From Nocardia sp. BMG51109 (lineage in GTDB: Bacteria; Actinomycetota; Actinomycetes; Mycobacteriales; Mycobacteriaceae): a stretch of DNA of 64,000 nt. Position numbers and translations under genes: made by a program. Positions 7,142 to 39,440 of the stretch are shown in pieces. The stretch lies in NCBI RefSeq assembly GCF_000526215.1, contig NZ_JAFQ01000004.1:3906001-3970000 (forward strand), written 5' to 3'. The notes beneath the pieces are model-generated. The model made no database searches and was not told the origin of the DNA. It saw only the letters and a list, made by a program, of their open reading frames with translations. How positions within the stretch are numbered: position 1 is the first letter of the stretch; each line of letters starts with the position of its first letter.

Positions 7142-7313
7142 CGAGCAATCCCACCCTCGGCAGGATCTTGCCGACCCGCCACCGCCCGGGACAGTCCTCT
7201 GCCGGCGGTGCGGCCGGTGCCGTGAATACCGGTATGCGACAGCGATTTCGGCACCGTCCACCCGTTCCGCGGGTTCTACTGTCTGCACCTCGATCTTCGA
7301 GAGGGAGACGGCA

Positions 7314-7472: not shown

Positions 7473-7475
7473 GCA

Positions 7476-8762: not shown

Positions 8763-8811
8763 GAGCTTCCCTTCGACGGTGAAGGTGGGATGTTCGGGTC
8801 GGGATCGGTTG

Positions 8812-12069: not shown

Positions 12070-12080
12070 GGGGACCCGCC

Positions 12081-16626: not shown

Positions 16627-16979
16627 GCGCCCACCTTGCTACCTGAACCAAAGTTCAGGTCAACGGCGGGAACCGCGACCAGCGTGCCGGCGTCCTGCCA
16701 ACACGCACCCGTCGGCAAGGGCGACCATTCGACGGAAGTCCCGAACATGCACAGGGCGCCCCAACACACCGGTACCCGGTTGGACGGCCGGCTACCAGGA
16801 AGTTTGGGCGGAGTTGTACGAGAGGCGAAATCCCTCAGTTCCTGGGCGGCGTCGTTTCAGATCCCATGCCTCGGATCGACCGGTGAACGGTGGGGATTGG
16901 TCGCGCACCGGCATGGGCGAGCGTTCCGCGACGGTGAAACCGGTGGTATGAACGGCGCCAGTATGGTTACAGTCGGTCG
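16627..16979. other. 353-bp divergent intergenic region
   Basis: Between the divergent esterase-like and methyltransferase genes. It holds the inverted repeat at 16641-16660. From 16661 to 16979 open frames exist on both strands, but none has a ribosome site or recognisable protein features, and no strong promoter or hairpin stands out. Confidence 0.5.
16641..16660. promoter_or_regulatory. Perfect inverted repeat upstream of the erythromycin-esterase-like gene
   Basis: ACCTGAAC-CAAA-GTTCAGGT, with two 8-base arms, lies 15-34 bp before the ATG. Read on the minus strand, TTGACC overlaps its left end as a possible -35, so the palindrome would sit in the promoter spacer, as for MerR-type or TetR-type operators. 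No such regulator is encoded nearby. Confidence 0.55.
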
Positions 16980-22757: not shown

Positions 22758-23879
22758 TCACATGCTGTCCGAGGCGAGAGGGACAGGGGTTTCGGTGGTG
22801 CTCCGGGCGATTCGTCGGTTGCGCCGCACCGAGGATATGAACGACCAGCCGATCAGGACGACGCCGGCGAGGCCGGTGATCACCTCGTTGATCTCGTACC
22901 GGATGGTGACCAGCAGGAGTATCGCGAGCGCGCCGATCGCGTAGTGGGCGCCGTGCTCGAGGTACACGTAGTCGTCCAGGGTGCCCTGGCGGACCAGGTA
23001 GACGGTGAGCGACCGAACGTACATGGCGCCGATGCCGAGGCCGAGCGCCATCAGGACGATGTCGTTGGTGACGGCGAAGGCGCCGATGACGCCGTCGAAG
23101 GAGAAGGAGGCGTCGAGGACCTCGAGGTAGAGGAACATGACGAACGCTGCCTTGCCCGCGAGGGCCACGGCCGGGCGCGGCTTGCCGGTGCGCTGGGCCT
23201 CGAGTTCGCGTGTCTCTTCGTCTTCGAGGCGGCTTTCGAAGAAGCCGGACAGGCCGCCGACGATGAGATAGGTGATCAGGCCCGCGGCACCCGCGATCAG
23301 CACGGTCGTCTGCTTGTCGGCGTGGCCGATGTGCTGGTGGGCGTGCGGCGCGAAGGCTGTTGCGGCGATGAGCAATACGATCAGTGCGAGGCAGAGCGAC
23401 AGGGCGTTGATCTTGCCCAGTTTGGCGATCGGCCGCTCGATCCAGCGGAGCCACTGGATCTCCCGCTCCTGAAACAGGAAGTCGATGAAGATCATCAGCA
23501 GGAACATGCCGCCGAAGGCCGCGATGGTCGGGTGCGCGTCGGTCACCAGCTGCTGGTAGCGGTCGGGCTGGTCGACGGCGAGGCGGACCGCCTCGACCGG
23601 TCCCGTCCCGGCGCTGACGGCGACGACCACGACGGGGAAGATCAGGCGCATGCCGAATACGGCGATCAGCACGCCGATGGTGAGGAAGATCTTCTGCCAG
23701 AAGGCGTTCATCTTCTTCAGGACTCCGGCGTTGACCGCCGCGTTGTCGAACGACAGCGAGATCTCCAGGACGGCGAGGATCGCGACGACCCCGAATGCGG
23801 TCCAGCCGCCGTAGAATGCCGCTGCGATCAGGCCGAGCACGGTGATCGCGAAGGACCAGCCGAACGTTCTCAGAATCAT
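22758..23879 (-). CDS. DUF475 / TerC-like integral membrane protein
   Basis: 373 residues from the ATG at 23879, with GGATGAG just upstream; an in-frame ATG at 23933 would add 18 polar residues and has no site. Many transmembrane helices are visible. The two diagnostic acidic motifs, LEISLSFDNAAVNAGVL near the N-terminus and LEVLDASFSFDGVIGAF in the second half, mark the TerC/DUF475 group, linked to tellurite resistance operons and, for TerC relatives, to metal (manganese) handling. A His-rich loop (APHAHQHIGHADKQ) between helices could bind metal. No other ter genes are nearby. The exact role is unknown. Confidence 0.85.
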   Translation of the reverse strand: MILRTFGWSFAITVLGLIAAAFYGGWTAFGVVAILAVLEISLSFDNAAVNAGVLKKMNAFWQKIFLTIGVLIAVFGMRLIFPVVVVAVSAGTGPVEAVRLAVDQPDRYQQLVTDAHPTIAAFGGMFLLMIFIDFLFQEREIQWLRWIERPIAKLGKINALSLCLALIVLLIAATAFAPHAHQHIGHADKQTTVLIAGAAGLITYLIVGGLSGFFESRLEDEETRELEAQRTGKPRPAVALAGKAAFVMFLYLEVLDASFSFDGVIGAFAVTNDIVLMALGLGIGAMYVRSLTVYLVRQGTLDDYVYLEHGAHYAIGALAILLLVTIRYEINEVITGLAGVVLIGWSFISSVRRNRRIARSTTETPVPLASDSM

Positions 23880-24421
23880 GGGCTCATCCTTCGTCGGGGT
23901 GAGTGCGGCAACCTCGGGGTGTGAGTGCGGCATCCGGTGTCGGCGGATCCGGATCCGGATCGCCGGGTACGCAAAACGGCAGCGGCAGGTGGGCGCCGAT
24001 ACGCATCGTGTAATACGCGGTCAGGTGAGGCAGGGCGTTGTCGTGGTTCGTGTCGCCGTCGTGGTTCGTGTCGCCGAGGCACGAGACCGCCGCCGTGTGA
24101 GTGGACTGCGGGTACTCGTCGGCGTCGGCGGCGGGCCGGGCCCGGCAGCATGCGGGGTGCAGAATGCCTCCTCGGTGGGCACGGCCGTCGATGTGCTTGC
24201 CCCGTACGTCCGTTCGGGGCAGTTCGTCCGTATCGATTATGCCCGCTGCTAACGGTTCTCGGTGTCGCTCCGGGGCACAGCCTCGCACCGGGGTGCGGCA
24301 ATCGCCGTCCCGCCGACCGAGACCGCGCTTTTCGGAACGGCATCCGGTAACCGAGTGCCGCCGTGCGGGCTGCTCGACCGGGCCGGGGCGTGCTCAGTAT
24401 GGAACACGCCGGCGGCGTCGT
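23880..24421. other. 542-bp region without a supported gene; contains a tandem repeat
   Basis: It lies between the DUF475 start and the 3' end of the SLOG-like gene. An 18-bp unit is tandemly duplicated at 24040-24075. A minus-strand frame ends exactly at the DUF475 ribosome site, but its sequence is Asp/Pro-rich low complexity without a convincing start. The upstream promoter of DUF475 is presumably here; no strong consensus was recognised. Confidence 0.45.
24040..24075. repeat. 18-bp perfect tandem duplication
   Basis: GTCGTGGTTCGTGTCGCC occurs twice head to tail (24040-24057 and 24058-24075). No coding frame is assigned here. It may be a replication-slippage product or a regulatory repeat upstream of DUF475. 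Confidence 0.85.
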
Positions 24422-25402
24422 TCAGATCGGGTCCGGGGTGGTGTGGAGGCCGAGGTGGTGGGTGATCAGGTCCAGGGCCGCCCGGATGGCGGTTTCGTGG
24501 TCGGTGTCGGCGAGTGCGTGGTGGGCGCCGGGGTCGAAGGTGGGGCCGGGTTCGCGGGTCAGCCAGTACTCCTGAGCGGTTCCGCCTGTGAAAGCCAGTG
24601 GGACGACCGGGATTTCGGCCTCGTCGGCGATGCGCGCCTCGGTGGCGGTGCCGGCCCCGCCACCGAACAGGATGACCAGCCGGCTCCGGCGGATCATCTC
24701 GTGGCGGGCCTCGTCGAGGGTCTTGTCGAGGAATTCGAGTGTGCCGAAGTTCCTCTGGACGGGCGCCGGGCGGCGGGAGGTGGTGCGGCGGAACAGGGTC
24801 AGCCGGTCGGGGGTGTAATGGGTGTGGGCCTGCAGGGTTTCCGCCATGGCGTAACCGGTTTCGAGCGCGGGCCTGGAGGCCATGACGAGGAGGCTGACCG
24901 GCAGTTGGGCGAGCGTGCGGCCGAGCAGGCCGGCGACCGGGTTCCACCGCGGATCGGTGTAGTTGCCGCCCAGGAAGATCGGGGTGTCGGCCCTGGCGCG
25001 GTAGGCGCGGGCGAGGCCGGAGGCGAGCTGCGCCAGGATCCGGTAGCGGTAGGTCTTGAACTGGTGGTCGGAGCAGCCGCGATCGTGCTCGCGGACGTAC
25101 TTGAGACGCTCCGTGACGTTCTTGCCGACCAACCCCGGCTCGGAGGCCAGCAGCACCTGAGCGAGCCGCCGGCCGGCCGAATCGGGTATCCCGGCAATCT
25201 GCGAATGTAACTGGCCGACAACCCATTCGGCGATCAGATCGCGGTAGCCCGGTAGCTCGAGCTGCGGCTTCCCGACGAGGGCGACCAGGACGTCGTCCAT
25301 GGCCAGCATGGCTTCGACCGACAGTTCTCGTGCTCTGCGGCCGTAACTCTCCAGCGCCTGATGCAACGGTGTGCGGATCCGCGATGACGTCATGGCCACC
25401 AT
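24422..25402 (-). CDS. SLOG/LOG-like Rossmann-fold nucleotide-binding protein
   Basis: 326 residues from the ATG at 25402; the ATG at 25393 is an alternative with a slightly better purine-rich leader. Residues about 140-280 look like a SLOG/LOG-type domain: IFLGGNYTDPRW (142-153), SRPALETGYA (176-185) and the phosphate-binding loop GGGAGTATE (247-255) with its trailing acidic residue. Such domains bind nucleotides or nucleotide-derived signals, and LOG enzymes cleave nucleoside monophosphates. The N-terminal 140 residues are helical and not recognised. It is on the same strand as the four-gene operon upstream, separated by 338 bp, so a functional link to its nucleoside hydrolase is plausible but not shown. 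Confidence 0.6.
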   Translation of the reverse strand: MVAMTSSRIRTPLHQALESYGRRARELSVEAMLAMDDVLVALVGKPQLELPGYRDLIAEWVVGQLHSQIAGIPDSAGRRLAQVLLASEPGLVGKNVTERLKYVREHDRGCSDHQFKTYRYRILAQLASGLARAYRARADTPIFLGGNYTDPRWNPVAGLLGRTLAQLPVSLLVMASRPALETGYAMAETLQAHTHYTPDRLTLFRRTTSRRPAPVQRNFGTLEFLDKTLDEARHEMIRRSRLVILFGGGAGTATEARIADEAEIPVVPLAFTGGTAQEYWLTREPGPTFDPGAHHALADTDHETAIRAALDLITHHLGLHTTPDPI

Positions 25403-25740
25403 GATTACGCGGGTTTCAGCACACTGTCCGCTTGTCGGGAGCAAATCATCCACAATCCCCCGAACTTTGCCACCTGTGCTTCGGCGCGCGGGTTTGTAAT
25501 GTCGGGATCGACAGGTGCCGGAGGCGTCACGTGTGCGGGGACTCCGCCGCCGGTTGGTCGTCGGAATCCCTTTCGGAGAGAAGGGAAGTGGCAGTACTGT
25601 GGGCAGACACCGTCGACCCGTCGGACTCGTGGAACGAATGACTTCGCTGCTGTGGGTCCCGGTCGCCGCGGCGGTTGCGGTGATCGTGATCCGGCGGCTG
25701 CGTGACGCGACCGGTTACCGGGGTGAGTGGGCGTATGGCA
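25403..25740. other. 338-bp gap between the SLOG-like gene and the nucleoside hydrolase
   Basis: It holds most of a possible 37-codon plus-strand frame (25638-25751). The remainder has no supported gene; it presumably includes the promoter of the SLOG-like gene, which reads leftwards. No clear hairpin terminator for the four-gene operon was found. Confidence 0.4.
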
Positions 25741-25751
25741 TCAGGGCGTGA
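25638..25751 (+). CDS. Possible single-span membrane micropeptide, 37 aa
   Basis: Starting at the ATG at 25638, the frame encodes one hydrophobic segment (LLWVPVAAAVAVIVI) followed by basic and aromatic residues. This is a typical small membrane protein layout, but the ribosome site is weak, and the frame overlaps the 3' end of the convergent nucleoside hydrolase by 11 bp. It may be chance. Confidence 0.25.
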   Translation: MTSLLWVPVAAAVAVIVIRRLRDATGYRGEWAYGIRA

Positions 25752-26742
25752 GCAGGTCGGCCAGCCAGGTGCGGAAGGCGGGGTAGTCGGCGCGGCCGGA
25801 GACCCAGAGCGGGCTTCCGCCGGCGTCGGCGGACATGCGGGCGTCCTCGGCGAGAGTGAGACGGCGGCGGCCGAAGTCGACGAAGGGCAATTGCAGGGCC
25901 GCGGTGAGGGCGAGCGGATCGTGCTGCATGCTCCTGGGGTGGAATCGCCGGAACCACCGGTCCAGGTGGGCGGTCAGCAGCGCCGCCCAGGCGGGCGAGC
26001 CCGGTTCGGCCAGCGACTTGTAGACGGCCGTGTCGGCGTCCACGGCGGTCTCGTCGGTGAAGGTGATGTCGGACAGCACGAGTTGCAGGGCCGGCACGGT
26101 GTCGACGACGTGGCGGGCGGCGGCGGGGTCGAGCCGGAAATTGTGCTCGGCGCGCCGGGGATCGCGATAGTTGATGGCCCCGCCCATCTGAGTGACCACC
26201 AGGCGCCGGGCCAGTTCCGGTGCGCGGCGCAGGATTTCGGCGAGGTTGGTCAGCGGTCCCATGCCGACCCAGCGGACCGGCCCGTCGGTGGCGGCGCAGA
26301 CGGTGCGCACCGCGTCGAGCACATCGGTCGGCTGGCGCGGCACGTCGTCGGGGACGAGATCGTCGACGACGTAGTAGCGGTTGTTGCCGAGATCCGCGCC
26401 GGCGACGACGGGGATGTCCTGCCGGTCGAGCAGGTCGAGCAGGTGGCGAGCGAATCGTGCCCGCCCGCCGTGGTTTTCGTCGGTGGTGAGCACGAGGGCG
26501 AGTTCGGGTGCGCCGCGGGCGGCACAGGCGATGGCCAGGGCGTCGTCGGGGTCGCCGCCGATATCGGTGTCGATGATGAGCGGGGTGCCCCGGACCGGCG
26601 GGGGCGGCGGCCCGTCGCCGCGGAGGCGTTCCGCCAGCGGGCCGAAGCCGAGATCGGCGTAGCGCTCGGCGAATCCGGGCAGGGATCCCGACGCCGATTC
26701 GAACGTTTCGTCGGCGTCCTCGTTATCGATGTCACCCATCAT
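25741..26742 (-). CDS. Inosine-uridine-preferring-type nucleoside hydrolase family protein
   Basis: 333 residues from the ATG at 26742 (ATGATGGGTGA overlaps the preceding gene's stop; the next codon is also ATG), with GAGAGGAG upstream. The calcium/ribose signature DTDIGGDPDDALA is at 58-70, EHNFRLDPAAA supplies the substrate loop, and a late HDPLAL carries the last metal Asp. The core is intact, so hydrolysis of an N-ribosidic bond is expected. The roughly 50-residue acidic N-terminal extension is unusual. As the last gene of an operon with a HerA-like ATPase, it may act on a nucleotide or nucleoside signal rather than in simple salvage; that is inference. Confidence 0.85.
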   Translation of the reverse strand: MMGDIDNEDADETFESASGSLPGFAERYADLGFGPLAERLRGDGPPPPPVRGTPLIIDTDIGGDPDDALAIACAARGAPELALVLTTDENHGGRARFARHLLDLLDRQDIPVVAGADLGNNRYYVVDDLVPDDVPRQPTDVLDAVRTVCAATDGPVRWVGMGPLTNLAEILRRAPELARRLVVTQMGGAINYRDPRRAEHNFRLDPAAARHVVDTVPALQLVLSDITFTDETAVDADTAVYKSLAEPGSPAWAALLTAHLDRWFRRFHPRSMQHDPLALTAALQLPFVDFGRRRLTLAEDARMSADAGGSPLWVSGRADYPAFRTWLADLLTP

Positions 26743-28924
26743 CGGCTCCTCTCGACTGCGGGTACTGTCGGTGGAAATCTGCGACATACGTCTTCTTGTC
26801 GTCCGGCGAGCCGAGCCACGGATAATCGCGCCACGCGGAGGCCGCCGCCGTGTCGTCGAGCCCCGCACGGTCGACCGCGGTACGCAGGTCGGCGAGTTCT
26901 CCGCCGGAGCGTGGCACGAACGAATCCATGAGTTCGGCGAACGCGGGGTCGGTACTTCCGGTGCCTGTTACCCATGATCGCACCTGTCGTGCGAAGTTTT
27001 CTGCCTTCCCGGACAGTTCACCGCGCGAGTCGCCGCCGGCGTCGCGCAGGTCGGCGACGTAGCGGGCGTAGTTGGCGACGGCGAGTTGGCCGGCGTCCAT
27101 GACCGCGAGCCGCACCGCGGCGTCGGTGTAGTCCTGGGAGACCACGGCGGGGTCCAGCCGGTCCAACCGCGGGGATTCCGGCTGCCGGATCGGTCGGCCG
27201 TCCTCGTCGTAGCCCCGGGTCTTCCCCATCGAGCCGCGCAGGATGTGCTCGATCGTCAGGACGGCATCCTTCTCCGTGAAGATCGCGAAAGGACTGTCCG
27301 GTGCGGTCGCGTCGCCGGCGGAGGCGTCGGCGGGGAGATGGAGGGCGTGCCCGGTCTTGCTGTCGGGATGCGGGTCGCCGCGGGCCTGTCCCAGGAACAG
27401 GTAGTGGCCGTGGACGTTGAGGTCGGGGTAGAGGGCCGTCAGCAATTCTTGGACCGTGCCTTTGAAACTGGAGTCGACGATGATCACGTCGGCGCCGGGC
27501 GTGGCGACGGGGACGCCACGAGATTCCACGTGGTTGGTCAGGCGGGCCCTGGCTCCGGGGATCTCTTCCGGGTCGACATCGGTCCGGGTGGCGCGGAAGG
27601 GCGCGAGCTCGTCGAAGGTGCGCCCGGTGTGGGTTTCCACATCCTGGACCGCAGCGTCGGCTCGTGCCCGCGGGACGGCGATGAGGGTGCAGTGGGAGTC
27701 GAAGAGGTTTCGGTCGAGCTCGTAGGCGGCCAGCGCGAGGCTGTCGCCGTCGCGGCTCACGAAGGCGATGACGGTGCCGGGCGCCTTGGCGAGGTGTTCC
27801 CGGCAGGCGTCGAGTATGCGTTCGGTGTAAGCGGTGATGAACGGTGCGTGATTGTCGGCGACCACGTCGTAGGCCCTCTCGACCGCGGCGATCGCGTCCG
27901 GGGCGTCGATACCGTGCCCGGCGCAGATGGCGTCGATACCCTGCCGCCGGCGCTCTGCGGCCTCGGCCTGTAGCCGTGCATCGAGCGTTTCCGGGGCGGC
28001 CGGGAGATCGGGTATGCCTGGTGCCGAAGAGGTTTCGAATGCCTCGGTCCGGGGGCCGGGTTCGTCGGCCGTTGCCGAACGGATTTCCGCCGTGTCGGCG
28101 TGCGGCTGGAATTCGCCCGCCGTTTTCGGAGGGGTTTCCGCGGTCTCGCCAGGGTGGGCCGGATCCTCGTCGGCCCTCATTGTCGAATCGGAGGCAGCCG
28201 CTTCGCGTTCCGGCTCGGGGATTCCGTCTGCCGTTGTGGCCGACCGGGTTGCAGCGGGCTCCTGCTGACCCCAGGGCGTGTCGGCTGCTGCCGCGGAGCT
28301 TTCTGTTTCGTCTCGGGGCGCGTGTTCCCCGTCAGCCGTTGGCGTCGAGCGGGATTCGACCGTTCGGTGTTGCGACGTGGAGGTGTTGTCGGCCGTAGTG
28401 GCCGAGGCGATGCCGGCAGCGTTGTGCTGGACTTCGGATTCTTCGATTGCCGCCGAACGACTTCCGGTGGATCTGCGCTGATCCTCGGGTTCGTCGCCCG
28501 TTACCGAGCCAATTTCACCGCTCTCGTGCCGGGCGGTGGATTCATCGGCGTTCCCGCCTGGCTCGAGCTCGATACCGCCGGGGCGGCCATCGTGGTGGAG
28601 TTGGCTGACAGCTCCGGGATCGTCAGCAGGAGAGCCGGTTCGGATGTGCCCCGCGGGTTCGGCATCGGTCGGTCCGCGGGTTCGCTCCCCCTCATCCGCA
28701 TGGGAGTGGGCGGTACGGTCGCTCGCTTGCTCCGCCGGTCCGGGGAGATCGAGCCCGAGTAGGCGTTCGCTGTCGTTGAGGGCTGCGTCAGGCCTGCGAC
28801 CGGCTGGGCTCGCGGTGTTTCGCCGAGCGACCTCGGCGTCGCTGCCGGGTCGATCCTGCGAGGTCTCCGGCGGCGTCGCGGCGGCCTCGCGCGGGTCCGG
28901 GGGAGGTTGGCCGTCGATGCTCAT
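26732..28924 (-). CDS. Large protein with disordered N-terminus and HAD/phosphoribosyltransferase-like core
   Basis: 730 residues, starting at an ATG that overlaps the stop of the HerA-like gene (ATGA). Residues 1 to about 320 are low complexity, rich in Glu, Ala, Thr, Asp and Ser, and probably disordered. The core begins near a helical segment (LQAEAAERRRQGIDAI) and contains FVSRDGDSLAL (about 385-396) and VIIVDSSFKGTVQELL (about 478-492). This pairing recalls the SRDG and VDxGWxGT-like motifs of HAD-type hydrolases associated with glycan genes (COG5610-like), and the second motif also resembles a PRPP-binding loop. Neither assignment is certain. The C-terminal 200 residues are helical and unrecognised. 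Confidence 0.55.
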   Translation of the reverse strand: MSIDGQPPPDPREAAATPPETSQDRPGSDAEVARRNTASPAGRRPDAALNDSERLLGLDLPGPAEQASDRTAHSHADEGERTRGPTDAEPAGHIRTGSPADDPGAVSQLHHDGRPGGIELEPGGNADESTARHESGEIGSVTGDEPEDQRRSTGSRSAAIEESEVQHNAAGIASATTADNTSTSQHRTVESRSTPTADGEHAPRDETESSAAAADTPWGQQEPAATRSATTADGIPEPEREAAASDSTMRADEDPAHPGETAETPPKTAGEFQPHADTAEIRSATADEPGPRTEAFETSSAPGIPDLPAAPETLDARLQAEAAERRRQGIDAICAGHGIDAPDAIAAVERAYDVVADNHAPFITAYTERILDACREHLAKAPGTVIAFVSRDGDSLALAAYELDRNLFDSHCTLIAVPRARADAAVQDVETHTGRTFDELAPFRATRTDVDPEEIPGARARLTNHVESRGVPVATPGADVIIVDSSFKGTVQELLTALYPDLNVHGHYLFLGQARGDPHPDSKTGHALHLPADASAGDATAPDSPFAIFTEKDAVLTIEHILRGSMGKTRGYDEDGRPIRQPESPRLDRLDPAVVSQDYTDAAVRLAVMDAGQLAVANYARYVADLRDAGGDSRGELSGKAENFARQVRSWVTGTGSTDPAFAELMDSFVPRSGGELADLRTAVDRAGLDDTAAASAWRDYPWLGSPDDKKTYVADFHRQYPQSRGADDG

Positions 28925-31746
28925 GGACCACCTCGCGTGGTGTCGTCCGGTGCGGGCAGCTCCGGTGCGGGCAGTAGAGCCAGCGGCCACCGCATCAGTC
29001 CGTGCAGGTGGGCGGTGGCGTGGCGCAATCGTTGTTCGATCGAGGGGGCGCGGCTGAGCCGGTCGATCGTGGTCGCGAGCAGGCCGGGTTCGGGGCCGGT
29101 CACGATGCGCGGGTCGGCCCAGTTGTCCGGATGGGCGTGCAGCATGTCGCGCTGTTCGGCGAGGGTGTCGCCGGGCAGGTGGAGCCCGCGCTTCGCCCAC
29201 GCGGTGGTGTCCGGATGCGGCCGATCCGCGGGCAGCGTCTCGTCGCGCAGTGCCTGTTCGACGTCGACCCACCGGTAACGCCCGGCCTGCCAACGAGTTT
29301 CGTCGTCGGCGCAGGATGCGGGCAGGCAGTGCAATGCGGCGGCGGCAACCTCGTCCAAGTGGTCGATGAGTTCTTCGGGCGGAAAATAGGCGACCAGCCC
29401 GGTGTAGCGGTGGCCGACCGCGGTGCGGAGGCGGTGGCCGACGGCCTCGGTGAGGATCGCCGGTTCGATCCGGGCGATCCACGTCGTGAGCCAGTCGGGG
29501 TCCGGGCGCGGGCCGGGGCGTCCGACGAGGTGCGCGATCACCGTGAGCTCGGTCCACAGGGTCAGGCGGGGGTCGTCGGCGAGCGAGTGGGCACGGTGCA
29601 GATCCCGCAGCGCCAAGGGCGTTTCGCGCGGTGCGGGGAACAGCGCCGGCGTCGGGCCGGGGTGGCGTGCCTCGCGTGTCTCGCCGAGCGGGATGTCGAT
29701 GCGGACCGGGCGGTCCATGCCGTCGGTGAAGACGACCGCGCGGCCGGGCGGCAGCGACACGATGTGCCGGGATTGGGCCGGGCCGAGATTCATGGTGGCG
29801 CCGACGAGATCGCGGTCCTCGGCGGCGGGGAGGCGGTGCACGATCTTGAGCGCGGTGTTCTTGACGACATCGGGCGTGATCTTGCTGGGGATCTGCTCGG
29901 CGACGACGATTCCTTCGCCGTAGGCGCGGATTTCGGCCAGCAGGGCGGTGAACAGCTCCACCGCGTGCGCGGACTGGCTGCCGGGTTCCGCCCGGCGCAG
30001 CAGCCGGTGGGCCTCCTCGAGGACGGTGACGTGCGCCAGTCCGGCCGAGCGGTCGGTGCGGTGGGTGCGCAGGTGCTCGGCGATGCGGATGAGGACCGCG
30101 CCGATGAGGAAGGCCTTGTCGGCGTCGGTGCCGATGTCCTCGATCTCGATGACGGTGTCGGTGGCCAGCAGGGCGGCGGTGTCGAGGCGGTAGCGCCCGT
30201 CGAAGAAGCGGCCGGGCGTGCCCAGGCGCAGCGATCCGAGCCGCACGTCGATGAAACCCCGGACGTTGTCGGTGATTTCGCGGCCGTAGCCGATGGTGTC
30301 GACCACCGCGAGGGCCGTGCTCCGAAGGTCGCCCAGGGTCGGATAGCGGGGTGTCCGGCCGGGGCGGCGGGGTGCGCCGACGACGGTGTCCCAGCCGAGG
30401 TCGGTGTAGCAGCGGGTCAACGCGTGCGACAGCACCTGCGGGAACGGTTCGACGGCGTCGAAGGAGGCGAGGAACAGGGCGCGGATGAGGTCGATGTGGG
30501 TTTGCAGCGGGAACCCGGGTTCGGGTTCGAGGGGGTTGATTCCGGCGGGGACGCTGTCGGGGTCGCCGGGCCGGATCACCGTGACGGGTGCCCCGGTGCG
30601 GCCGGCCATGGCGGCGTATTCGGCCTTGGCCGGCTCGATGACCAGCCATGGAATTCCGGCGGTGTGCAGGTGCTCGAGCAGGTGCCGCACGGTTTGGGAT
30701 TTGCCGGATCCGGTTGCGCCGGCGACGAATCCGTGCCGGTTGAGGGTGTCGCGGGTGACGGTGAACCGATGGACGGGCGCATCGGCGGAGTCGAGGACGG
30801 TGCCGAGGTCGATATCGCCGTCGTGTTCGGGCGTCAGGTCGAACTCGGCCGCCTCGACCATGCGGATGCCGGGTAGTTCCCGGCGCGGCGGTCGGGCCAG
30901 TTCGGCGAGGAGTTCGGTATCGGCCAGGAAGGGGGAGCGGGTGTCGGCGCCGGTGACCGGTGCCGCCAGCGTCTCGGCGAGACCGGCCGCCGCCGGATGC
31001 GGGGTGAGCAGGTAGGGGAGATCGTCGAGATCGGCCGCGCTGCACAGCAGTCCGGCCGCTCGATGGGTGCCGGCGAGGTCGTCGCCGCCGACGAGCACGT
31101 GCGCGTTCCACACACCGCAGGCACGTGCCCGGGTCAGCTCGCGGTACCGGAATTCGCCGCGCTGCACGGCGATTCGGGCAGGCTCGGAGTCCTCGCGGGC
31201 ACGCCACAGCGGCAGCTGCACTTCCAGTTCGGCCAGTTCCTCGTCGACTCGGGCGGGCGGAACGGGGGAGGCCACGACGAGCCATACGAATCTGCCCGGC
31301 AGGTGAGTGATGTAGTCCTCGAAGCCGCCGCGCCGGGGGCGGCCCGCCGCGGAGCCGGGTGTCGGCAGCCACAGGGAATCGGCGCGACCGGTGCACCGTA
31401 TCCAGACGGGCATCCGTTCCCACTGCGTCACCACCGATTCCGTGGGCACGGCCCGGGCCGTGGCCCCCGGCGGAAACAGCATCCGGTCCGCGTCGCGGCC
31501 GGCTATCGACGGAAACCGGGGGTCGCCGCCGACCAGCACTCGGATCCGGCCGTCGGCGCCGATCCGGTCCCAGGCCACCGCCAAGGAGCACTCGGTGCCG
31601 GTGAGACACAGCGTTGCGTGGGCCGCGGTGAGTGCGGCGAATACGGCGACGCGCTGGTGCCGTGCCTGCCGGTCCGCCGGCCGGTCGCCGTCGGGGGGTG
31701 GCGACGGAATGGTCCGGATCTGGTGAAAACCCAAGCCGCTCAACAT
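28921..31746 (-). CDS. HerA/VirB4-type ATP-binding protein (DUF87-like)
   Basis: 941 residues; the ATG overlaps the stop of the upstream gene (ATGTTGA). Walker A GATGSGKSQ lies at about 338-347 and Walker B HVTVLEEAHRLL at about 570-580; the sensor-like segment EIRAYGEGIVVAEQIPSKI follows, as in HerA/FtsK-superfamily DNA-translocating or conjugative ATPases. The N-terminal 300 residues resemble an ATPase-associated barrel/linker region, and the C-terminal 250 residues are family-specific. It probably forms hexamers that pump DNA or protein, powered by ATP. Partners are expected among the overlapping genes: the two-TM protein before it and the HAD-like protein and nucleoside hydrolase after it. 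Confidence 0.85.
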   Translation of the reverse strand: MLSGLGFHQIRTIPSPPPDGDRPADRQARHQRVAVFAALTAAHATLCLTGTECSLAVAWDRIGADGRIRVLVGGDPRFPSIAGRDADRMLFPPGATARAVPTESVVTQWERMPVWIRCTGRADSLWLPTPGSAAGRPRRGGFEDYITHLPGRFVWLVVASPVPPARVDEELAELEVQLPLWRAREDSEPARIAVQRGEFRYRELTRARACGVWNAHVLVGGDDLAGTHRAAGLLCSAADLDDLPYLLTPHPAAAGLAETLAAPVTGADTRSPFLADTELLAELARPPRRELPGIRMVEAAEFDLTPEHDGDIDLGTVLDSADAPVHRFTVTRDTLNRHGFVAGATGSGKSQTVRHLLEHLHTAGIPWLVIEPAKAEYAAMAGRTGAPVTVIRPGDPDSVPAGINPLEPEPGFPLQTHIDLIRALFLASFDAVEPFPQVLSHALTRCYTDLGWDTVVGAPRRPGRTPRYPTLGDLRSTALAVVDTIGYGREITDNVRGFIDVRLGSLRLGTPGRFFDGRYRLDTAALLATDTVIEIEDIGTDADKAFLIGAVLIRIAEHLRTHRTDRSAGLAHVTVLEEAHRLLRRAEPGSQSAHAVELFTALLAEIRAYGEGIVVAEQIPSKITPDVVKNTALKIVHRLPAAEDRDLVGATMNLGPAQSRHIVSLPPGRAVVFTDGMDRPVRIDIPLGETREARHPGPTPALFPAPRETPLALRDLHRAHSLADDPRLTLWTELTVIAHLVGRPGPRPDPDWLTTWIARIEPAILTEAVGHRLRTAVGHRYTGLVAYFPPEELIDHLDEVAAAALHCLPASCADDETRWQAGRYRWVDVEQALRDETLPADRPHPDTTAWAKRGLHLPGDTLAEQRDMLHAHPDNWADPRIVTGPEPGLLATTIDRLSRAPSIEQRLRHATAHLHGLMRWPLALLPAPELPAPDDTTRGGP

Positions 31747-33539
31747 GATGCCGCCGTCGCGGTGCGTGGTGCGGCGGCGACCCGATCGAGCAGCGCGATC
31801 CCGGGATTGCAGTCGCCGGCGACGACCCGCCGCCCGTGCCCTTCGTTTTCCACCCAGACGAACGCCGTCGCCGGCAGCGACTGGAACGTCGTCGGCTCCA
31901 CCAGGTACTCGTAGGCGCGCGCCCAGGTACGTCCGGTCGACGTGTTCTCCGCGCGCGACCAGCTGGTGGTCTGTGACCAGGTGGCCGCCCGGGAGTGGGA
32001 GTCCGAGCTGCCGGCCGACGTCGGTGCATAGTTGTCGGTGACAGTGGAGGTCACCGAATCACCGGTGGTGTCGGAGATTCCGTCGGTGAAGCTGCGGCCG
32101 ATCTGCTCGGTCAGCTGCGACAGCACGAATCTGTGCCCGCGGCCGACGAAGTCGGCGGCGGCCGCGGCCTCGGCGGCGTTTCCCAGCCGCATCAACAGCG
32201 CCGCGCTGCCGGCGGCGCCGAGCAGCTGCGTGTGCTCGCCGCGCAGATGCTCGGACATGGTAATCAGCCGCAGCCCGGCGCGGCCGGTGTGCCGGGCCAG
32301 CGCCTCCAACTGCTCGGTGTCGAGGCGATCGGCGCCCGCGACGACCACGGCGCCCGGCGTGGCCGCGGCGCCGGCCCGGACCTCGTGCATCGTCCGGGCG
32401 AAGACGAGCCCGTCGAGCAGGTGTTTGCGGCGCGCGTTCGGGTCGGCGGTCGCGACGACGCGCAGACCTGCCCGGGGCCGGACCGGTTCGAGCGTGGCGG
32501 CGGCGGGCAGGTCGCCGAGCAGGCGCAGCGCCGCGGTCAGGAATCGCAGCTCCTCCTCGGCGAGCGAGCCGAGGGTTTCGGTGATCCGGTTCAGCCGGCG
32601 GATCTCGTTGCCGGACAAGCTGTTGTGCCGCTCGGTGTCGAAGGTGCGGCGCAGCACCGACAGACCGGCCGCGATCCGCCGGAAGGTCCGCGGTGGTTCG
32701 AGGCAGTCGTGCACGGCCTCGACCAGCTCGGCGTCCACCGCATGGACTCGTGCCGCATCCGGTGGCGAGCCCCGCATCGCGGCCAGGACCTCGGCCACCA
32801 TCTCGCCGGCCTGTGCGGAGGGCAGATCCGCGACACCGACCACGCCGTCGCGCGGCACGCGGTCCACTCGCACGCCGTAGCCGACCGTACCGGCCAGCGT
32901 CGCCAGTTCCGCCGCCACGCCGCGCTCGGTGAAATCCAGGATCAGCACCGTCGAACCGGTCGACAACAGCGAAAGGCCCAGTGTGGCAAGCAGGCTCGAC
33001 CAGCCGTCGGCCGTGCCGCCGAATACCGTCACCTGGTTCCAGTCCCGCTCGGGTTGCACCGGATACCACCGCACCGCCGCCGCGAGCCGCTCCTGCTCGC
33101 GCCGGTCATGCTCGGCGACTTGGGATTTCCACCGATTCATCGCCGTCTCGAACCGGCTCCATTCCTCGGCCGCCCGTGTCTCGTGCAACCGGCGAGCGGT
33201 GGCGTATTGCATTCCCGCGAGGGCGGACCACGCGGCGACCGGCGCCAGTACCACGCCGGCCGCCACCGGCCACCACGCCAGCCCCCACGAGGCGGCCAGC
33301 ACCGTCGCGAACGCCGCCGTGAGCACCCCGGCGCCCAGCATCAGCGGGATCCCGCGCACCCGCCCGCGAAACCGTTCGAGACTCCGCGGCTCCGCGAACC
33401 CCAGCCATTGCGGGGCGCAATCGTGCACAGGACTCGGCGCCGGCGGTGCGGGAACGACATATTCCCAGCCCCACCGTTCCCGCGCACCCAGTAGACGGGC
33501 CGCAAGCTGGTGATTGCCCACCATCGACAACTGATCCAC
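31740..33539 (-). CDS. Two-TM membrane protein with P-loop-like degenerate domain
   Basis: 599 residues from a GTG with GGGGGA 6 bp upstream. Two transmembrane helices lie at about 64-84 and 88-108, followed by a charged helical, probably coiled stretch (112-155). The following domain has strand-loop order like a RecA-fold ATPase, but the expected Walker A is only GGTADGWSS (174-182); a Walker-B-like TVLILDFT is at 197-204. A conjugative coupling-protein-like arrangement (membrane anchor plus ATPase fold) is suggested, with catalysis lost or transferred to the next gene. The C-terminal 100 residues are Ser/Thr-rich. First gene of the four-gene unit; its family was not recognised. Confidence 0.6.
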   Translation of the reverse strand: MDQLSMVGNHQLAARLLGARERWGWEYVVPAPPAPSPVHDCAPQWLGFAEPRSLERFRGRVRGIPLMLGAGVLTAAFATVLAASWGLAWWPVAAGVVLAPVAAWSALAGMQYATARRLHETRAAEEWSRFETAMNRWKSQVAEHDRREQERLAAAVRWYPVQPERDWNQVTVFGGTADGWSSLLATLGLSLLSTGSTVLILDFTERGVAAELATLAGTVGYGVRVDRVPRDGVVGVADLPSAQAGEMVAEVLAAMRGSPPDAARVHAVDAELVEAVHDCLEPPRTFRRIAAGLSVLRRTFDTERHNSLSGNEIRRLNRITETLGSLAEEELRFLTAALRLLGDLPAAATLEPVRPRAGLRVVATADPNARRKHLLDGLVFARTMHEVRAGAAATPGAVVVAGADRLDTEQLEALARHTGRAGLRLITMSEHLRGEHTQLLGAAGSAALLMRLGNAAEAAAAADFVGRGHRFVLSQLTEQIGRSFTDGISDTTGDSVTSTVTDNYAPTSAGSSDSHSRAATWSQTTSWSRAENTSTGRTWARAYEYLVEPTTFQSLPATAFVWVENEGHGRRVVAGDCNPGIALLDRVAAAPRTATAASC

Positions 33540-33879: not shown

Positions 33880-35838
33880 CTATGGCCGTATCCCGTTGCA
33901 CCGGGCCACCCGCTGGGCGCGGTCGGACGCTCGGGGCGATGCTTCGGTGCGGTCGAGGTCGGCGAGGTGGTTCAGGGTCGCGGCGTAATCTTTCACCAGG
34001 TTGTGGAAGCGGTAGTGTTCGGGCACAACCTGTTCCAGTAGATGGATGTCGACGAGGGCCTCCAGGATCTGTTCGGCGGCGTCGACCTCGATATCGGCCA
34101 GCGCGGCTGCGGTGTGGACGTCGAAGTCGCGGGTCGGGTGCAGGCCCAGCAGCCGGAACACGCGTCGCTGATCGCCCGGCAGGTTCTGGAAGCCGGCGGT
34201 GAGCGCGGCCGATACGCTGCGGGACCCCGCCGACAGGTGCGCGAGCCGACGGCCGGGTCGCCGAAGCCGCTCGGCCAATCGTTCGATGGGCCAGACCGGA
34301 CGCGCGCGGAGCCGGCCGGCGGCGATCCGGATCGCGAGCGGGAGACAGCCGCACAGCCGAACGGTTTCCTCCATCGCATCGGGCTCTGTCAGGACTCGGT
34401 GGTCATCGACGATGGTGGCGAACAGCGCCGCGGCGTCCTCGCGCGAAAGAACGTCCAGCGACAGGGTTTTGGAGACTTCCAGGTCGACCAGCCGGCGCCG
34501 GCTGGTGATCAGGACCAGGCAGTCGGGCGTGCCGGGCAGCAGCGGCCGAACCTGGTCGGCGTCGGCCACGTTGTCGAGGACGAGGAGCACCGAACGAGAA
34601 GCGATCCTGGTGCGCCACAATGCCGCTCGGGCGTCCACGTCCGGCGGTATCGACTCGCTCGGCACTCCGGTGGCACGTAACAGCCTGTCCAGCGCCACCA
34701 TCGGTTCGACGGGTGCGCTCTCCGCGGCATGCCCGTGCAGGTCGAGGTAGAGCTGGGCGTCGGGGTAGCGGCTGCTGAGCCGATGGGCCGCGCGGATCGC
34801 CAGCGTCGTCTTACCGACGCCGGCCATGCCATCGATCGCCTGGACCAGCACGGTCCGGCGGGCCTCCCGCGGGGGTACGTCGGCGAGCAGACTGCGCAAC
34901 TCCGCGCTCCGGCCGGTGAAGTCCGCGATGTCGCCGGGAAGCTGATTGCGGCTCCTGCCCGAGAGGATCCCCTCGCCGGGCTGTCCGGCCTCGACTGCGG
35001 TCGAAACCGCTCCACCGCAGTCCGATTCGTCTCGGCGGGTGGCTGTTCGCGAGGTCGCGTCGGCCGGCGGATCGATCTCGTCGCGCAGGATCCGCTGATG
35101 TAGTTCGCGCAGTTCGCGGCCCGGCTCGATGCCCACTTCGTCGACCAGCCGGCGCTGCGCGTCCTGGAAGACCATCAGGGCCTCCGCCTGGCGGCCGCAG
35201 TGGTAGAGGCCGAGCATGAGCAGCGTCCGGAGCCGCTCCTGCAGCGGGTACGAGGCGACCAGCGGAACGAGGTCCGCGACCGCGTCGGCATGCCGTCCGC
35301 GGGCGAGCTTGATCTCGGCACGGTGTTCGAGAGCGGTGAGGTACTTCTCCTGCAATCGGCGGCGTTCGTTCTCGACGAGCGGGCCCGCCAGGCCGCTGAA
35401 CGGCTCACCACGCCACAGTGCCAGCGCGGCATCGGTATGGGCGGCCGCTGCCGTGAGGTCGTCGTCGCGCAGGCATCGTTCGGCTGTCGCAATACGTTGG
35501 TCGAAGGCGACGAAATCCGATAAGGACGGGTCGCCGCGCAGTACATAACCCGTCTCGGCCCATACCAGAGCGGATTCCGACACATTACATACCTTGCGTT
35601 GTGCCAAGGCCCGCCGGAGGCGGCTGACATAGGTCTGCACGCCGTTGCGTGCGTCGCCCGGTGGGTGTTGGCCCCACACCGCGTCGACGATGGTATTCAC
35701 CGTTACCAGATGGTTCATCGCCAGCAGCAGTGCCACGAGCACCGCTTGTTGTTTCGCCGGTCCCAGCTCGATTTCACGGTCGTCCCGCCACGCCGTGAAC
35801 GAACCGAGCACGCCGTATCTGATCTGGGGTTGCGCCAT
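33880..35838 (-). CDS. SARP-family activator with BTAD and NB-ARC domains
   Basis: 652 residues from the ATG at 35838, preceded by AGGAGGG. Residues about 1-95 form an OmpR-like winged helix (VLGSFTAWRDDREIELGP, VWGQHPPGDARNGVQTYVSRLR). A BTAD/TPR domain follows to about 245, then an NB-ARC ATPase with Walker A GMAGVGKTT at 337-345 and LLVLDNV as Walker B. This is the AfsR/DnrI class of pathway activators, common in actinomycete secondary-metabolite clusters. It is divergent from the NRPS genes with 460 bp between starts, so it is the probable cluster-situated activator. The TPR array of full-length AfsR is missing, which is usual for shorter members. Confidence 0.88.
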   Translation of the reverse strand: MAQPQIRYGVLGSFTAWRDDREIELGPAKQQAVLVALLLAMNHLVTVNTIVDAVWGQHPPGDARNGVQTYVSRLRRALAQRKVCNVSESALVWAETGYVLRGDPSLSDFVAFDQRIATAERCLRDDDLTAAAAHTDAALALWRGEPFSGLAGPLVENERRRLQEKYLTALEHRAEIKLARGRHADAVADLVPLVASYPLQERLRTLLMLGLYHCGRQAEALMVFQDAQRRLVDEVGIEPGRELRELHQRILRDEIDPPADATSRTATRRDESDCGGAVSTAVEAGQPGEGILSGRSRNQLPGDIADFTGRSAELRSLLADVPPREARRTVLVQAIDGMAGVGKTTLAIRAAHRLSSRYPDAQLYLDLHGHAAESAPVEPMVALDRLLRATGVPSESIPPDVDARAALWRTRIASRSVLLVLDNVADADQVRPLLPGTPDCLVLITSRRRLVDLEVSKTLSLDVLSREDAAALFATIVDDHRVLTEPDAMEETVRLCGCLPLAIRIAAGRLRARPVWPIERLAERLRRPGRRLAHLSAGSRSVSAALTAGFQNLPGDQRRVFRLLGLHPTRDFDVHTAAALADIEVDAAEQILEALVDIHLLEQVVPEHYRFHNLVKDYAATLNHLADLDRTEASPRASDRAQRVARCNGIRP

Positions 35839-36298
35839 GGACAAAGCCCTCCTGAACCATGTGCTGCCGATCCAGCATAGGCCGCGCGACCCCCCGTTCG
35901 GCCCAAGCACACACCCCTTCCTCGAGCCAAGAAAGATTGGTGTAGCCTCACCCTGGTCTGACCAGCTATTTGCGCATGAGTACAGCGTTGGTCACGCAGG
36001 CTGGGACACCCTGGTCGGGTGTATGACTACACGACCGGGGGACCCCGATTTCCGGGACAATCGAAAAAGCCTCCGCTTCACAATAGCTCATCTGATTACG
36101 GTCGCCTGTTCAAGCCCGAGCTCGATCATGTCGATCACGCGGCGTATCGGCTGACCCGCCGCGTCGCCGTACTGCCGCGCGCTGCGGTCGGGGATGTCAC
36201 CCATGCGGGGTCGGAGTGGCCGGCGGGTGCGACGCAGGTCGACGCCGAGGTCTGTCCGTAGGTACCACCGCCGAGATGACACCTGAGGAAGCTTCGCC
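35839..36298. promoter_or_regulatory. 460-bp divergent promoter region between SARP and NRPS
   Basis: Direct copies of TGGTC occur at 35954, 35989 and 36012; the first is part of a palindrome TGGTC-T-GACCA (35954-35964), and CCCTGGTC is repeated at 35951 and 36009. SARP proteins bind direct repeats near the -35, so these are candidate activator sites. A ribosome site (GAGGAAG, 36282-36288) precedes the NRPS ATG. An open frame of 80 codons on the plus strand shows no protein character. Confidence 0.45.
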
Positions 36299-39200
36299 AT
36301 GCCATTCGGTAACACATCCCCGTTGCGCGGTCCGACGGCGATTCAGAAAGAGTTGTGGATAGCGCACGAACTGTCGGATGTTCCCAACAACTGCGTCGTA
36401 TACATCGATATCCGCGCAGATCTGGACACGGAGTGTTTCATCGCGGCTGTGCGGCACGTGTTCGGCGAGTCGGAGCCGCTCAGGGTGAACTTCGTCCGGG
36501 GTGCCGACGGCCCGGTGATGGTCGAGCGTGACATCGGGGACTGGATGCCGATACACGTGGATCTCACCGAGAAGCCGGACCCGGTGGCGGCCGCCTTCGA
36601 CTATATGTCCGGTGAACGGGAGCGGAGTTTCGATCTGGAGCGCGATTCACTGTTGCGAGTCGCACTACTCGAGCTGGGCGACGGACACCACCTCGTGTCG
36701 ACGTGTTTCCATCACATCATCATGGACGGCGTCGGCGTCGTCGCGTGGGCCCAGCGAGTTCTCGACGTGTACCATACGTCGAGGGCGGGAATTCCCCTCG
36801 AGTCGTCCGGATTCGCGCGCATCGAGGATATCGCCGACAGCGATGATTTCTATCGGCTGCATCAGCAGGACGTGGATCGTGATTACTGGCGGGGTCGGAT
36901 CCCCGCCGGGATCGATCGGCTGAGGCTTCCCGGACACGCCGATGCCGGCGCGGAGCCGGGGCGCATCGGTTGTACACGCGAATTCTCCGGTACGGATCTG
37001 GACGATGTGGCGAACGCCGCGCAATCGATCGGCGTCAGACTTCCGTATCTGCTGATGTCGGTAGCGGCCGCCGTTGTCCGGCGTTACGCGCAACGGGACG
37101 AATTCTGCGTGCAGATACCGGTTTCCAACCGTGCCGGTATCGCCCGGGGTACGCCGTGTCAACTTTCGGACAACATTCCCCTCCTGATAGATGCGAGCCG
37201 TGACCTGTCGCTGGCGGGCCTGGCCGCAGGAATCGGCGAAAGCATATCCGACGCCAAGGGGCACCTGCGGTACGGGATGGCGAATATCCGGCGAGACTCG
37301 AGAATGTCATCCACCGATGATCAACCACTCGGTCCGGTCGTCAATGTCATGTCGTTCTTCGGCGCCTTGAGGATGACCGGCGGCACGGCCGATCTCCAGG
37401 TCTTCTCGGCCGGTAACAATGGAGATCTGTCGATCGTGTTCTCGTATGAGAAGCGGTCGGACCGCGGTATTTTCCTGCGCGTGGAGGGGGATTCTCGGCT
37501 GTATACCGACGATGATCTCCACCGCTATCTCGAATCGACTGCTCGCTGCTTGCGACAGGCGATATCCGACCCGGGCGTCCCGATCGGGTCGGTGGATGTT
37601 CTCGGCGCCGATCGCCGGCTGGTGGTGGAGGCGTGGAACGACACGGCGGTGCCGGTCGACCCGGAGGCGACGGTGGTGGGGTTGTTCGAGGACCGGGTGA
37701 ACCGGGAACCGGACGCGGTGGCGGTGGTGTCCGGTGCGCTGGAGCTCTCGTATCGCCGGCTGAACGAGTGCGCGGATCGTATCGCCCGGGCCCTGACGGC
37801 GTACGGGGTGCGCTCGGACGATGTCGTCGCGGTGGCACTGCCCAAGTCGGCGGAGCTGGTCGTCGGGATGCTGGCGGTGCTGAAGGCCGGTGGCGCGTAT
37901 CTGCCGATCGATCCCGCCCATCCCGCGGACCGGCTGGCGTTCGTCCTCGACGATGCCGCCCCCGTTGCCGTCCTCACCGACGCTGCGACGTCGAAAACGC
38001 TGCCGGACATCGGCGTACCCCTTCTGCTCGTCGACGAGGGCGGTGCGGAACCGTCCGTTGTCGCGTCGCCGACTCCGCCGCGGCCCGGCAATCTCGCGTA
38101 CCTGATGTACACCTCCGGGTCCACCGGCAGGCCGAAGGGCGTCGCCGTCACCCACCGCAATGTGGCCTCGCTTTTCCAGGGCGTCGCCCGGTGGTGCGAA
38201 TTCCGTCCCGATGACGTCTGGGCCTGGTGTCATTCGCCGGCATTCGACTTTTCCGTCTGGGAGATCTGGGGTGCGCTCCTGCACGGCGGCAGGCTCGTCG
38301 TCGTGCCGTGGGACGTGGTGCGCACCCCCGCGCAGCTGTGGGACCTGGTGGTCGACGCCGGAGTGACGATTCTCAATCAGACCCCTTCGGCCTTCCGCGC
38401 ACTGGCGGAAGCTCGGTCGGTCGCCGGTACTACCGATTCCGCTCTGCGTACGGTGATATTCGGCGGGGAGGCGCTGCGGCATACGCATCTGCGGCCCTGG
38501 TATTCGCCCGGTGGTGCGAGTCCGGCTCTGGTCAATATGTATGGGATCACCGAAACCACGGTGCATGTGACAAAGCTGGACGTGCATCCGGAGCATGGCG
38601 CTCGGGGTGGTAGCCCGATCGGGTCCCCGCTGGGGAATATGCGGGCGTACGTGCTGGATTCGTGGTTGATGCCGGTTCCGGTGGGGGTGGCCGGGGAGTT
38701 GTACGTCGCCGGTGCGCAGCTGGCGCGGGGATATCACGGCCGGGCGGGGCTGACCGCTGTGCGGTTCGTTGCTGATCCGTTCGATTCGGCCGGTGGCCGG
38801 TTGTATCGCACGGGTGATGTGGCGCGGTGGAATGCCGGCGGGCAGTTGGAGTTCGTGGGCCGGGCCGATGATCAGGTGAAGATTCGTGGTTTCCGGGTCG
38901 AGCCCGGTGAGGTGGAAAGTGCCCTGGCTCAGCATCCTTCGGTGTCGCAGGCGGTCGTGGTGGTACGAGCCGACGGCGATGACGGCGATGACCGGTTGAT
39001 CGGTTACGTGGTCACCGATCGCGCGAGCGGGAATGGGCCCGATGGTGCGGAGGTGCGGCGGTTCGCCGCCGAGCGGTTGCCGGATTTCCTGGTGCCGGCG
39101 GTGGTGACGGTGATCGAGTCGGTGCCGTTGACCGCGAACGGGAAGGTGGATCGTGGGGCGCTGCCGAATCCGGAGTGGGTGTCCTCGGCGCGGTACCGGG

Positions 39201-39440
39201 TGCCCGGGACGACTCGGGAACGGGTATTGGCCGAGTTGTTCGGCGAGGTTCTGGGCCTGGAGCGGGTCGGCGCGGAGGACAGTTTCTTCGAACTGGGCGG
39301 CCATTCTCTGTCCGCCACTCGTCTGATCAGCAGAATCCGGTCGGCGCTGGGGGTCGAGGTCCCGATCCGGACGGTTTTCGATGCTCCGACGCCGGCACGG
39401 CTGGCGACTCGGCTGGATGCCGGTGTGCGGGTGCGTCCGA
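36299..39440 (+). other. NRPS module 1: starter C - A(Thr) - T
   Basis: The C domain (HHIIMDG, residues 138-144) is divergent from the other C domains. A-domain binding-pocket residues extracted by alignment to GrsA positions are D-F-W-N-I-G-M-V-H plus the invariant Lys, identical to the published threonine code. The carrier Ser is S1003. With no preceding module, the likely reaction is N-acylation of threonine, giving a lipopeptide head. Confidence 0.85.

Follow-up and report, generated by a model that had tools for sequence, protein, structure and literature searches.

In a window of 64,000 nucleotides from Nocardia sp. BMG51109 (the whole stretch of DNA analysed, to which all positions given without another source refer), four overlapping genes on the minus strand, here named A to D, were investigated. 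The window lies within contig C4 (8.53 Mb) of a genome of 8.79 Mb (G000). Gene A (31740-33539, 599 aa) shares the seven bases ATGTTGA (31740-31746) with gene B (28921-31746, 941 aa). B overlaps gene C (26732-28924, 730 aa) at ATGA (28921-28924), and C overlaps gene D (25741-26742, 333 aa as called) at ATGATGGGTGA (26732-26742). The four overlapping genes and all three junctions named in the original prediction were present. For D the true start is probably the second ATG at 26739, because D of the relatives begins with MGD; an overlap of eight bases with C would be left. A fifth gene on the same strand, 287 bases past D, codes for a SLOG-like protein (24422-25453, 343 aa). The proteins of the window were compared with the models of Pfam, NCBIfam and PADLOC. 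Gene starts in relatives come from a simple gene caller whose training set was five loci, including the window.

The membrane protein expected for A agrees with two hydrophobic segments near the N-terminus (residues 64-82 and 92-110), which form a transmembrane hairpin (64-110). Nothing convincing was found for A in the three libraries. The VirB4/TrwB/HerA fold, known from type IV coupling proteins, was assigned to it, its Walker A motif is degenerate (GGTADGWS), and besides a disordered Ser/Thr-rich stretch (478-538) it has a conserved C-terminus. A is predicted to be a membrane-anchored pseudo-ATPase. The HerA-like ATPase expected for B was recovered with the Pfam families HerA_C (34.2 bits, cutoff 22) and DUF87 (30.3 bits, cutoff 23.2). 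All 79 relatives of B carry the Walker A pattern and 75 of them (E/D)EAH, and a transmembrane segment was absent in all six examined. B appears to be an intact, soluble HerA-type motor ATPase. Sequence comparison shows that A and B belong together as conserved partners of the FtsK/HerA superfamily, A being the degenerate and B the intact member. A accompanied B in 32 of 32 genomes and was located within 6 kb at 39 of 43 places of B, at 37 of them on the same strand; both counts are uncorrected for kinship. Curated models of known HerA-type and secretion ATPases were not reached by B: HerA_antiphage gave 49.5 bits (cutoff 800), HerA_antiphage_2 14.5 (cutoff 850) and T7SS_EccC_a 13.2 (cutoff 509.15). 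For the NCBIfam models VirB4, TraD and TraG B stayed far under the cutoffs and A matched none. Partial matches were obtained with the PADLOC HerA-type models (best mad8 with 2.9e-16 and HerA with 3.2e-16), for which no curated cutoff is given. The idea that the NCBIfam family ser_rich_anae_1 is split into A and B was dropped; the match was good for B only (2.3e-10), and that of A (0.0085) was confined to the Ser-rich stretch. Relatives of B were detected in 39 of 72,556 plasmid records (6 conjugative, 12 mobilizable, 21 non-mobilizable), and two weak ones in phages. Lactococcus plasmids (five records) and some other non-actinobacterial plasmids of this collection carry such relatives.

The distribution was examined in 98 genomes of the same genus. 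Fourteen of them carry the C domain, at 17 places in all, ten carry B (one weak, G019, 162 bits) and eight the SLOG gene (one weak, G083, 80.7 bits). Six genomes (G000, G036, G085, G086, G092, G094) possess A, B, C, D and the SLOG gene completely and in this order. The cassette is conserved but accessory. Compared with the window, the other five cassettes are 45-60% identical in A and 61-71% in B. Two more named species of a species collection, N. macrotermitis and N. gamkensis, carry the cassette as well. At a seventh locus of the genus sample (L023 in G094) C, D and the SLOG gene are accompanied by a piece of A only and B is absent. The genes stand together in all six genomes of the genus with a close B; rare adjacency had been named with the original prediction as a refuting result. 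D was near C at nine of the 17 places. A fixed complex of the four proteins, which had also been suggested, was not supported: C occurs without B in eight genomes, B without C in G022, G054 and G060, A and B without C at most of the loci surveyed below, and C with D without A and B.

The gene following B was surveyed at the best 80 of 279 B loci. An open reading frame just past B was picked at 73 of the 80; at 42 of these its start is at -4, -1, -8 or -11 from the end of B, which is an upper guide because the picking favoured these offsets. Many of the picked genes, called cargoes here, open with leaders rich in Pro, Glu, Asp, Ser and Thr, outside the Actinomadura group. For 46 candidates from 44 loci (without the six Nocardia loci of the C type, the Actinomadura-type loci, L081 and L089) a Pfam scan at 1e-3 gave 12 families, covering at most 13 of the 46 proteins. 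RHS_repeat, DUF6531, YwqJ, CdiA_C_tRNase and RelA_SpoT were matched twice each (RelA_SpoT at L057 under cutoff); Endonuclea_NS_2, DddA-like, Gln_amidase, CdiA_C, TEN_YD-shell, RHS and Peptidase_C2 (under cutoff) complete the list. For all 12, toxins or RHS proteins are known carriers, RelA_SpoT and Peptidase_C2 being present in other proteins too, and RHS-repeat shells, CdiA_C, DddA and YwqJ domains belong to families associated with intercellular toxins. As control, 43 of 44 picked genes upstream of A were scanned (that of L042 was excluded). They gave 77 families, and none of the 25 listed, such as sigma factors, DUF4190 and P450, is a toxin family.

Among the fourth genes, 29 of 32 picked were scanned, since the other three (L045, L053, L078) were assigned to the cargoes. 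Five of the 29 belong to named immunity families (three Imm49, one Imm1, one YezG); LtrA, kinase and helix-turn-helix proteins were also found and are probably mere neighbours. An endonuclease cargo is followed by YezG at L040 and a DddA cargo by Imm1 at L056; at L048 Imm49 stands next to a cargo without Pfam match. On plasmid pSCL4 of Streptomyces clavuligerus the annotation lists a hypothetical protein (A by its place), an ATP-binding protein (B), an ADP-ribosyltransferase (PF03496, 2.1e-24) and a hypothetical protein. Comparison of the loci indicates that what B overlaps with its 3' end is an exchangeable gene; its protein combines a disordered leader with a C-terminus that varies and is often of toxin type, and at some loci an immunity-type gene comes next. 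By eye, two cargo-like genes follow a single A-B pair in tandem at L045, L046 and L098.

The genome of the window contains a second A-B locus near 8.32 Mb (L116, G000:C4:8318000-8337500). There A (3042-4961 of the locus) and B (5024-7957) are followed by a different cargo (7954-9687, 577 aa) and a gene of 108 aa. By eye, three truncated rlmN-like fragments (3-488, 12070-12843 and 16600-17070) and transposase-like remnants flank it; it is possibly an insertion at rlmN.

N- and C-terminal parts of 24 hand-picked cargo pairs were compared by shuffle z. The cargo of L116 resembles that of L060 (apparently the same record as L118) in the N-terminal part (z 20.6) and not in the C-terminal part (z -0.9). 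The same pattern was obtained for L053/L054 (17.0 and -1.1), L070/L071 (35.9 and -1.5), L080/L115 (38.0 and 3.1) and L082/L115 (24.1 and -0.2), and L057/L054 is a further pair of this kind. The opposite was seen with L079/L115 (2.5 vs 40.7) and L060/L119 (2.8 vs 77.9). Some pairs are alike at both ends, e.g. L080/L082, and some at neither, e.g. L040/L043. Pairs with the same leader and different C-termini are the classical mark of polymorphic toxins, and on these scores the A-B family bears it.

Gene C gave zero matches in Pfam, NCBIfam and PADLOC. Its leader (27986-28924, the first 313 residues or so), delimited by composition and similar in many relatives, is disordered and of Pro/Ser/Thr/acidic type, an architecture common to the cargoes of A-B loci; I, L, V, M, F, W, Y and C together amount to just 9% of its about 310 residues. 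The remaining 417 aa (26735-27985) are the predicted toxin. The predicted model of C matched the CriT ribosyltransferase part of Bcs3 and not its phosphatase, and thereby the catalytic part looks like a (phospho)ribosyltransferase domain of the CriT/phosphoribosyltransferase fold. The closest folds are polysaccharide-making proteins. Of the "disordered HAD-like" protein announced for C, the disorder was retained and the HAD fold was given up. The latter had been considered from this label and from motif resemblance to capsule HAD/glycosyltransferase proteins. No HAD protein is named among the model matches listed, although such an absence is no proof. Signature residues of the domain are R78 D79, R106, D171 followed by xxxxGT, Q179 and E246. 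R78/D79 are kept in 16 of 16 covered C domains and D171 in 17 of 17. They correspond to R679/D680 and E818 of Bcs3 by order of motifs, not by residue-level superposition. Full-length C as query gave only two matches, probably owing to low-complexity words. Relatives of C were not found on viral contigs in the scan.

D was confirmed as a member of the nucleoside hydrolases (IU_nuc_hydro, 102.1 bits, cutoff 34.2, 5.9e-29) with intact active sites DTDIGGDPDD and QHD. The enzyme-specific hydrolase models of NCBIfam were not reached (best RihA, 48.7 vs 433), and D, which overlaps the 3' end of C, belongs to no named immunity family. In a tree of 31 hydrolases the D proteins of the cassettes form a group with the lone hydrolases of G069 and G086:C4 (fork support 91/82), and the ordinary Nocardia hydrolases sampled lie elsewhere. 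Two D proteins linked to type VII secretion systems (T7SS) stand on a separate branch, so the D proteins do not make up a single clean clade. Grouping with ordinary salvage enzymes, named beforehand as an argument against a dedicated system, was not seen in this sample, but the lone members and the separate pair make the separation incomplete. In the genus search 11 D-like matches reached at least 400 bits, C being present with nine of these; below them the best score was 321. The catalytic site is intact in most aligned copies. Among the D relatives adjacent to C it is lost only at L023 and L158, where the signature of C is intact, which suggests that the partner role of D can survive catalytic loss, as for a binding immunity protein. 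The SLOG-like gene, also noticed in the original prediction, belongs to the cassette (six of six full cassettes). Its protein has the motif GGGAGTATE (GGGxGT) and stays below the curated Pfam cutoffs (STALD 18.2 bits, cutoff 24; LDcluster4 16 bits, cutoff 26.3). Two nucleoside-hydrolase relatives lie at L122 (G086:C4:89000-108900) near genes which by eye are methyltransferase- and P450-like, C being absent; a third match follows just past this locus at G086:C4:109278.

Furthermore, C and D were found in other contexts. The C domain is located inside large Nocardia open reading frames at L027, L028, L031, L032, L034 and L035, three of which were scanned. The frame of L027 (3979 aa) contains WXG100_2 at the start (3.2e-15), ADP-ribosyltransferase exotoxin domains (1.3e-19) and C at 1575-2039. 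That of L034 has a Gln_amidase toxin domain and Peptidase_M3, and that of L031 DNA-binding helix-turn-helix families instead of toxin domains. At L163 a relic of C, lacking the middle with the PRPP (phosphoribosyl pyrophosphate) loop, shares one protein with Scabin-like and Gln_amidase toxin domains; a D relative comes next. Reuse of the C domain as a toxin domain in other delivery systems was observed, with L163 as a relic. D stands beside C in seven Nocardia cassettes (L023, without B, included) and at two T7SS-type loci, as the seventh gene past the giant gene of L120 and the fifth past the frame of L124; the latter ends at the contig edge and is called T7SS-type from neighbours resembling those of L120. 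Two plasmids, Pseudonocardia pBCI2-2 and one of Streptomyces sp. NBC_00134, carry the pair with the hydrolase first (54-55% identical to D). Among the non-self matches in 394 genomes of the class, D accompanied C at four of six loci (L158, L159, L160, L163); L159 and L160 are close relatives, and D is absent at L161 and at the fragment L162. The operon of L158 (1865-6805) consists of a GT4-conflict glycosyltransferase (7.5e-102), HAD_SAK_2, a catalytically dead hydrolase and an intact C. This may be a separate conflict system.

From these results it is likely that the operon is a polymorphic-toxin operon with A and B as motor pair, C as exchangeable toxin and D as immunity protein. FtsK/HerA-type ATPases act in type IV and type VII secretion. 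Their fold and these relatives suggest that A and B would bind the leader of C and export the toxin, either to the outside or into a neighbouring cell. The C domain would then transfer a (5-phospho)ribosyl group from PRPP to something essential in the target cell. Position, pairing and chemistry point to D as the cognate immunity protein; its ribohydrolase site could undo the ribosylation, or D could bind C. Binding is favoured in at least some cases, because dead D relatives occur beside signature-bearing C. The SLOG-like protein may act as another protective protein, or as a sensor, for a ribosyl-nucleotide product. We put forward only tentatively, and with some doubt, the broader proposal that A-B represents a so far undescribed, minimal machine for protein export, built from a live and a dead, membrane-anchored ATPase of HerA/VirB4 type, which delivers polymorphic toxins in Actinomycetes. 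At the same time C would be the founding member of a class of ribosyltransferase toxins that depend on PRPP and have antidotes of the nucleoside-hydrolase fold, a class employed again in giant T7SS-type toxins and in gene pairs on plasmids as well as in A-B loci. If true, Streptomyces, Nocardia, Amycolatopsis and their relatives would possess a new way to deliver antibacterial toxins, resembling a secretion motor reduced to its essentials. Many "hypothetical" genes past HerA-like ATPases would become toxin-immunity pairs, and PRPP-based ribosylation would be a weapon with the nucleoside-hydrolase fold as counter. Among the papers listed in searches of the open-licence literature of PubMed Central neither an A-B cargo system nor a PRPP-transferase toxin was recognised; subscription journals and preprints were outside this scope.

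Several observations weigh against the polymorphic-toxin reading. At least 33 of the 46 cargo candidates had no Pfam match at 1e-3, the cargoes of L116, L119 and L145 had none at 0.05, and that of L054 gave a weak non-toxin match (Peptidase_S26, 0.0011, under cutoff). In the Actinomadura group at least 12 loci (within L085-L113) bear a mutually alike third gene of 573-654 aa. The sole one scanned, of L087, was Pfam-negative with a DUF5955 neighbour; other picks in the group are not gene-like. A and B may serve another purpose there. The leader of C is unlike any other compared (four pairs, z -1.1 to 1.6). An expectation-maximization motif search in 47 leaders revealed no cargo signal, only the start MS-x-D, which is partly forced by the ATGA overlap; a motif 12 wide scored 171.7 vs 146-153 for shuffles with fewer starts, and no coherent motif was visible in it. 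Eight of the 17 Nocardia C places, mostly with divergent C and one at 37% identity, have no D nearby. The match of C with 7shg at sequence level is marginal (E 0.77). The dead D relatives at L023 and L158 speak against a purely enzymatic immunity, and the C-D pair behind GT4-conflict and HAD genes at L158 suggests that C is not necessarily always exported.

An intracellular phage defence or abortive infection, in which A and B sense phage DNA and release C while D and the SLOG-like protein restrain it, is unlikely; the swapping of toxins would then be an arms race within one cell. The partial PADLOC matches of B (best 2.9e-16), the patchy distribution and the C-D pairs without A-B are compatible with it, as is the SLOG nucleotide sensor of Thoeris in the passages considered from PMC9503650. 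The original prediction had been reminded of antiphage pairs of HerA with a nucleotide-degrading effector, but this was not borne out: B is far under HerA_antiphage, A, C and D fit no PADLOC model, and the gene past B is exchangeable, with toxin families in other species and immunity families beside some. Cargoes with RHS shells, CdiA_C, DddA and YwqJ, the leader-sharing pairs, which mark delivered toxins, and the predicted membrane anchor of A speak against the intracellular reading. Taken as a whole, the observations of that prediction were confirmed and its interpretation was partly supported.

It is rather improbable that C, D and the SLOG-like protein are a pathway for ribosylation of small molecules or glycans, with a PRPP ribosyltransferase and an N-ribohydrolase, and that A-B merely stand in front. 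The polysaccharide-making folds closest to C, the C-D pair behind glycosyltransferase and HAD genes at L158 and the intact site in most aligned copies of D fit such a pathway. However, C stands where A-B loci carry their cargo and is also found inside or fused to toxin-domain proteins, dead D stands beside signature-bearing C at two loci, and the glycosyltransferase of L158 is itself of the GT4-conflict type. A DNA-transfer module (conjugation or type IV coupling) with the toxin riding as maintenance cassette is very improbable despite the VirB4/TrwB fold of A and the plasmid-borne relatives of B, as the annotation of the three annotated plasmid loci inspected shows no relaxase or other conjugation gene beside A-B, 21 of the 39 plasmid records are non-mobilizable, and the VirB4, TraD and TraG models were missed by both proteins.

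In the window an AfsR-like BTAD/NB-ARC regulator (33880-35910) adjoins A, and BTAD-like genes also stand beside lone C genes at L030 and L161. Giant open frames (36299-51487 and 51484-64000), by eye nonribosomal peptide synthetases, adjoin the operon. A Ter-type stress operon was considered from a TerC-like gene (22758-23933, by eye) and rejected, since this gene is absent beside the other cassettes read by eye.

The earlier statement that no named system is matched still holds, as this conserved conflict-type operon fits none of those tested. In the text considered from the study of NTP-dependent conflict systems (PMC7159879), GT4, PRTase, phosphoribosyl and nucleoside hydrolase occur 0 times. 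With the HerA-Sir2 and HerA-DUF4297 antiphage systems the operon shares a HerA-family motor beside an effector gene and the partial PADLOC HerA matches; A, C and D gave no PADLOC match, no model of a known effector such as Sir2 or DUF4297 was matched in the window, and here an extra pseudo-ATPase and exchangeable toxin-type and immunity genes are present. From the ATPases of type VII (EccC) and type IV (VirB4/VirD4) secretion A-B differ by scores far under the curated cutoffs and by being two separate genes. The T7SS cargo domains of WXG100/LXG type are absent from C in Pfam and from the 12 families of the 46 cargo candidates. Polymorphic toxin systems, as far as described in the part considered of PMC3482391, are similar in a conserved trafficking part, a variable C-terminal toxin, a putative immunity gene downstream and shared toxin domains. 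The four passages there with "HerA" or "FtsK" name ATPases of T7SS and type IV secretion systems only, and a stand-alone pair of dead and live HerA-type ATPases is not among them; this part contains neither "phosphoribosyltransferase" nor "nucleoside hydrolase". The CriT-type PRPP ribofuranosyltransferases (Bcs3, PMC10299916, in the part considered; 7shg) resemble C in the fold, the Arg-Asp of loop 1, the acidic loop 3 and the helical bundles. C differs from them, as no HAD phosphatase domain was detected, as it pairs with nucleoside hydrolases, and as it occurs in a leader or giant-protein context and not in capsule loci. Tre1/Tri1 and DarT/DarG are ADP-ribosyltransferase toxins with hydrolase immunity. 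If the proposed model holds, transfer of a ribosyl-containing group would likewise be countered by a glycohydrolase-type partner, with PRPP instead of NAD as donor and an immunity protein of the nucleoside-hydrolase fold.

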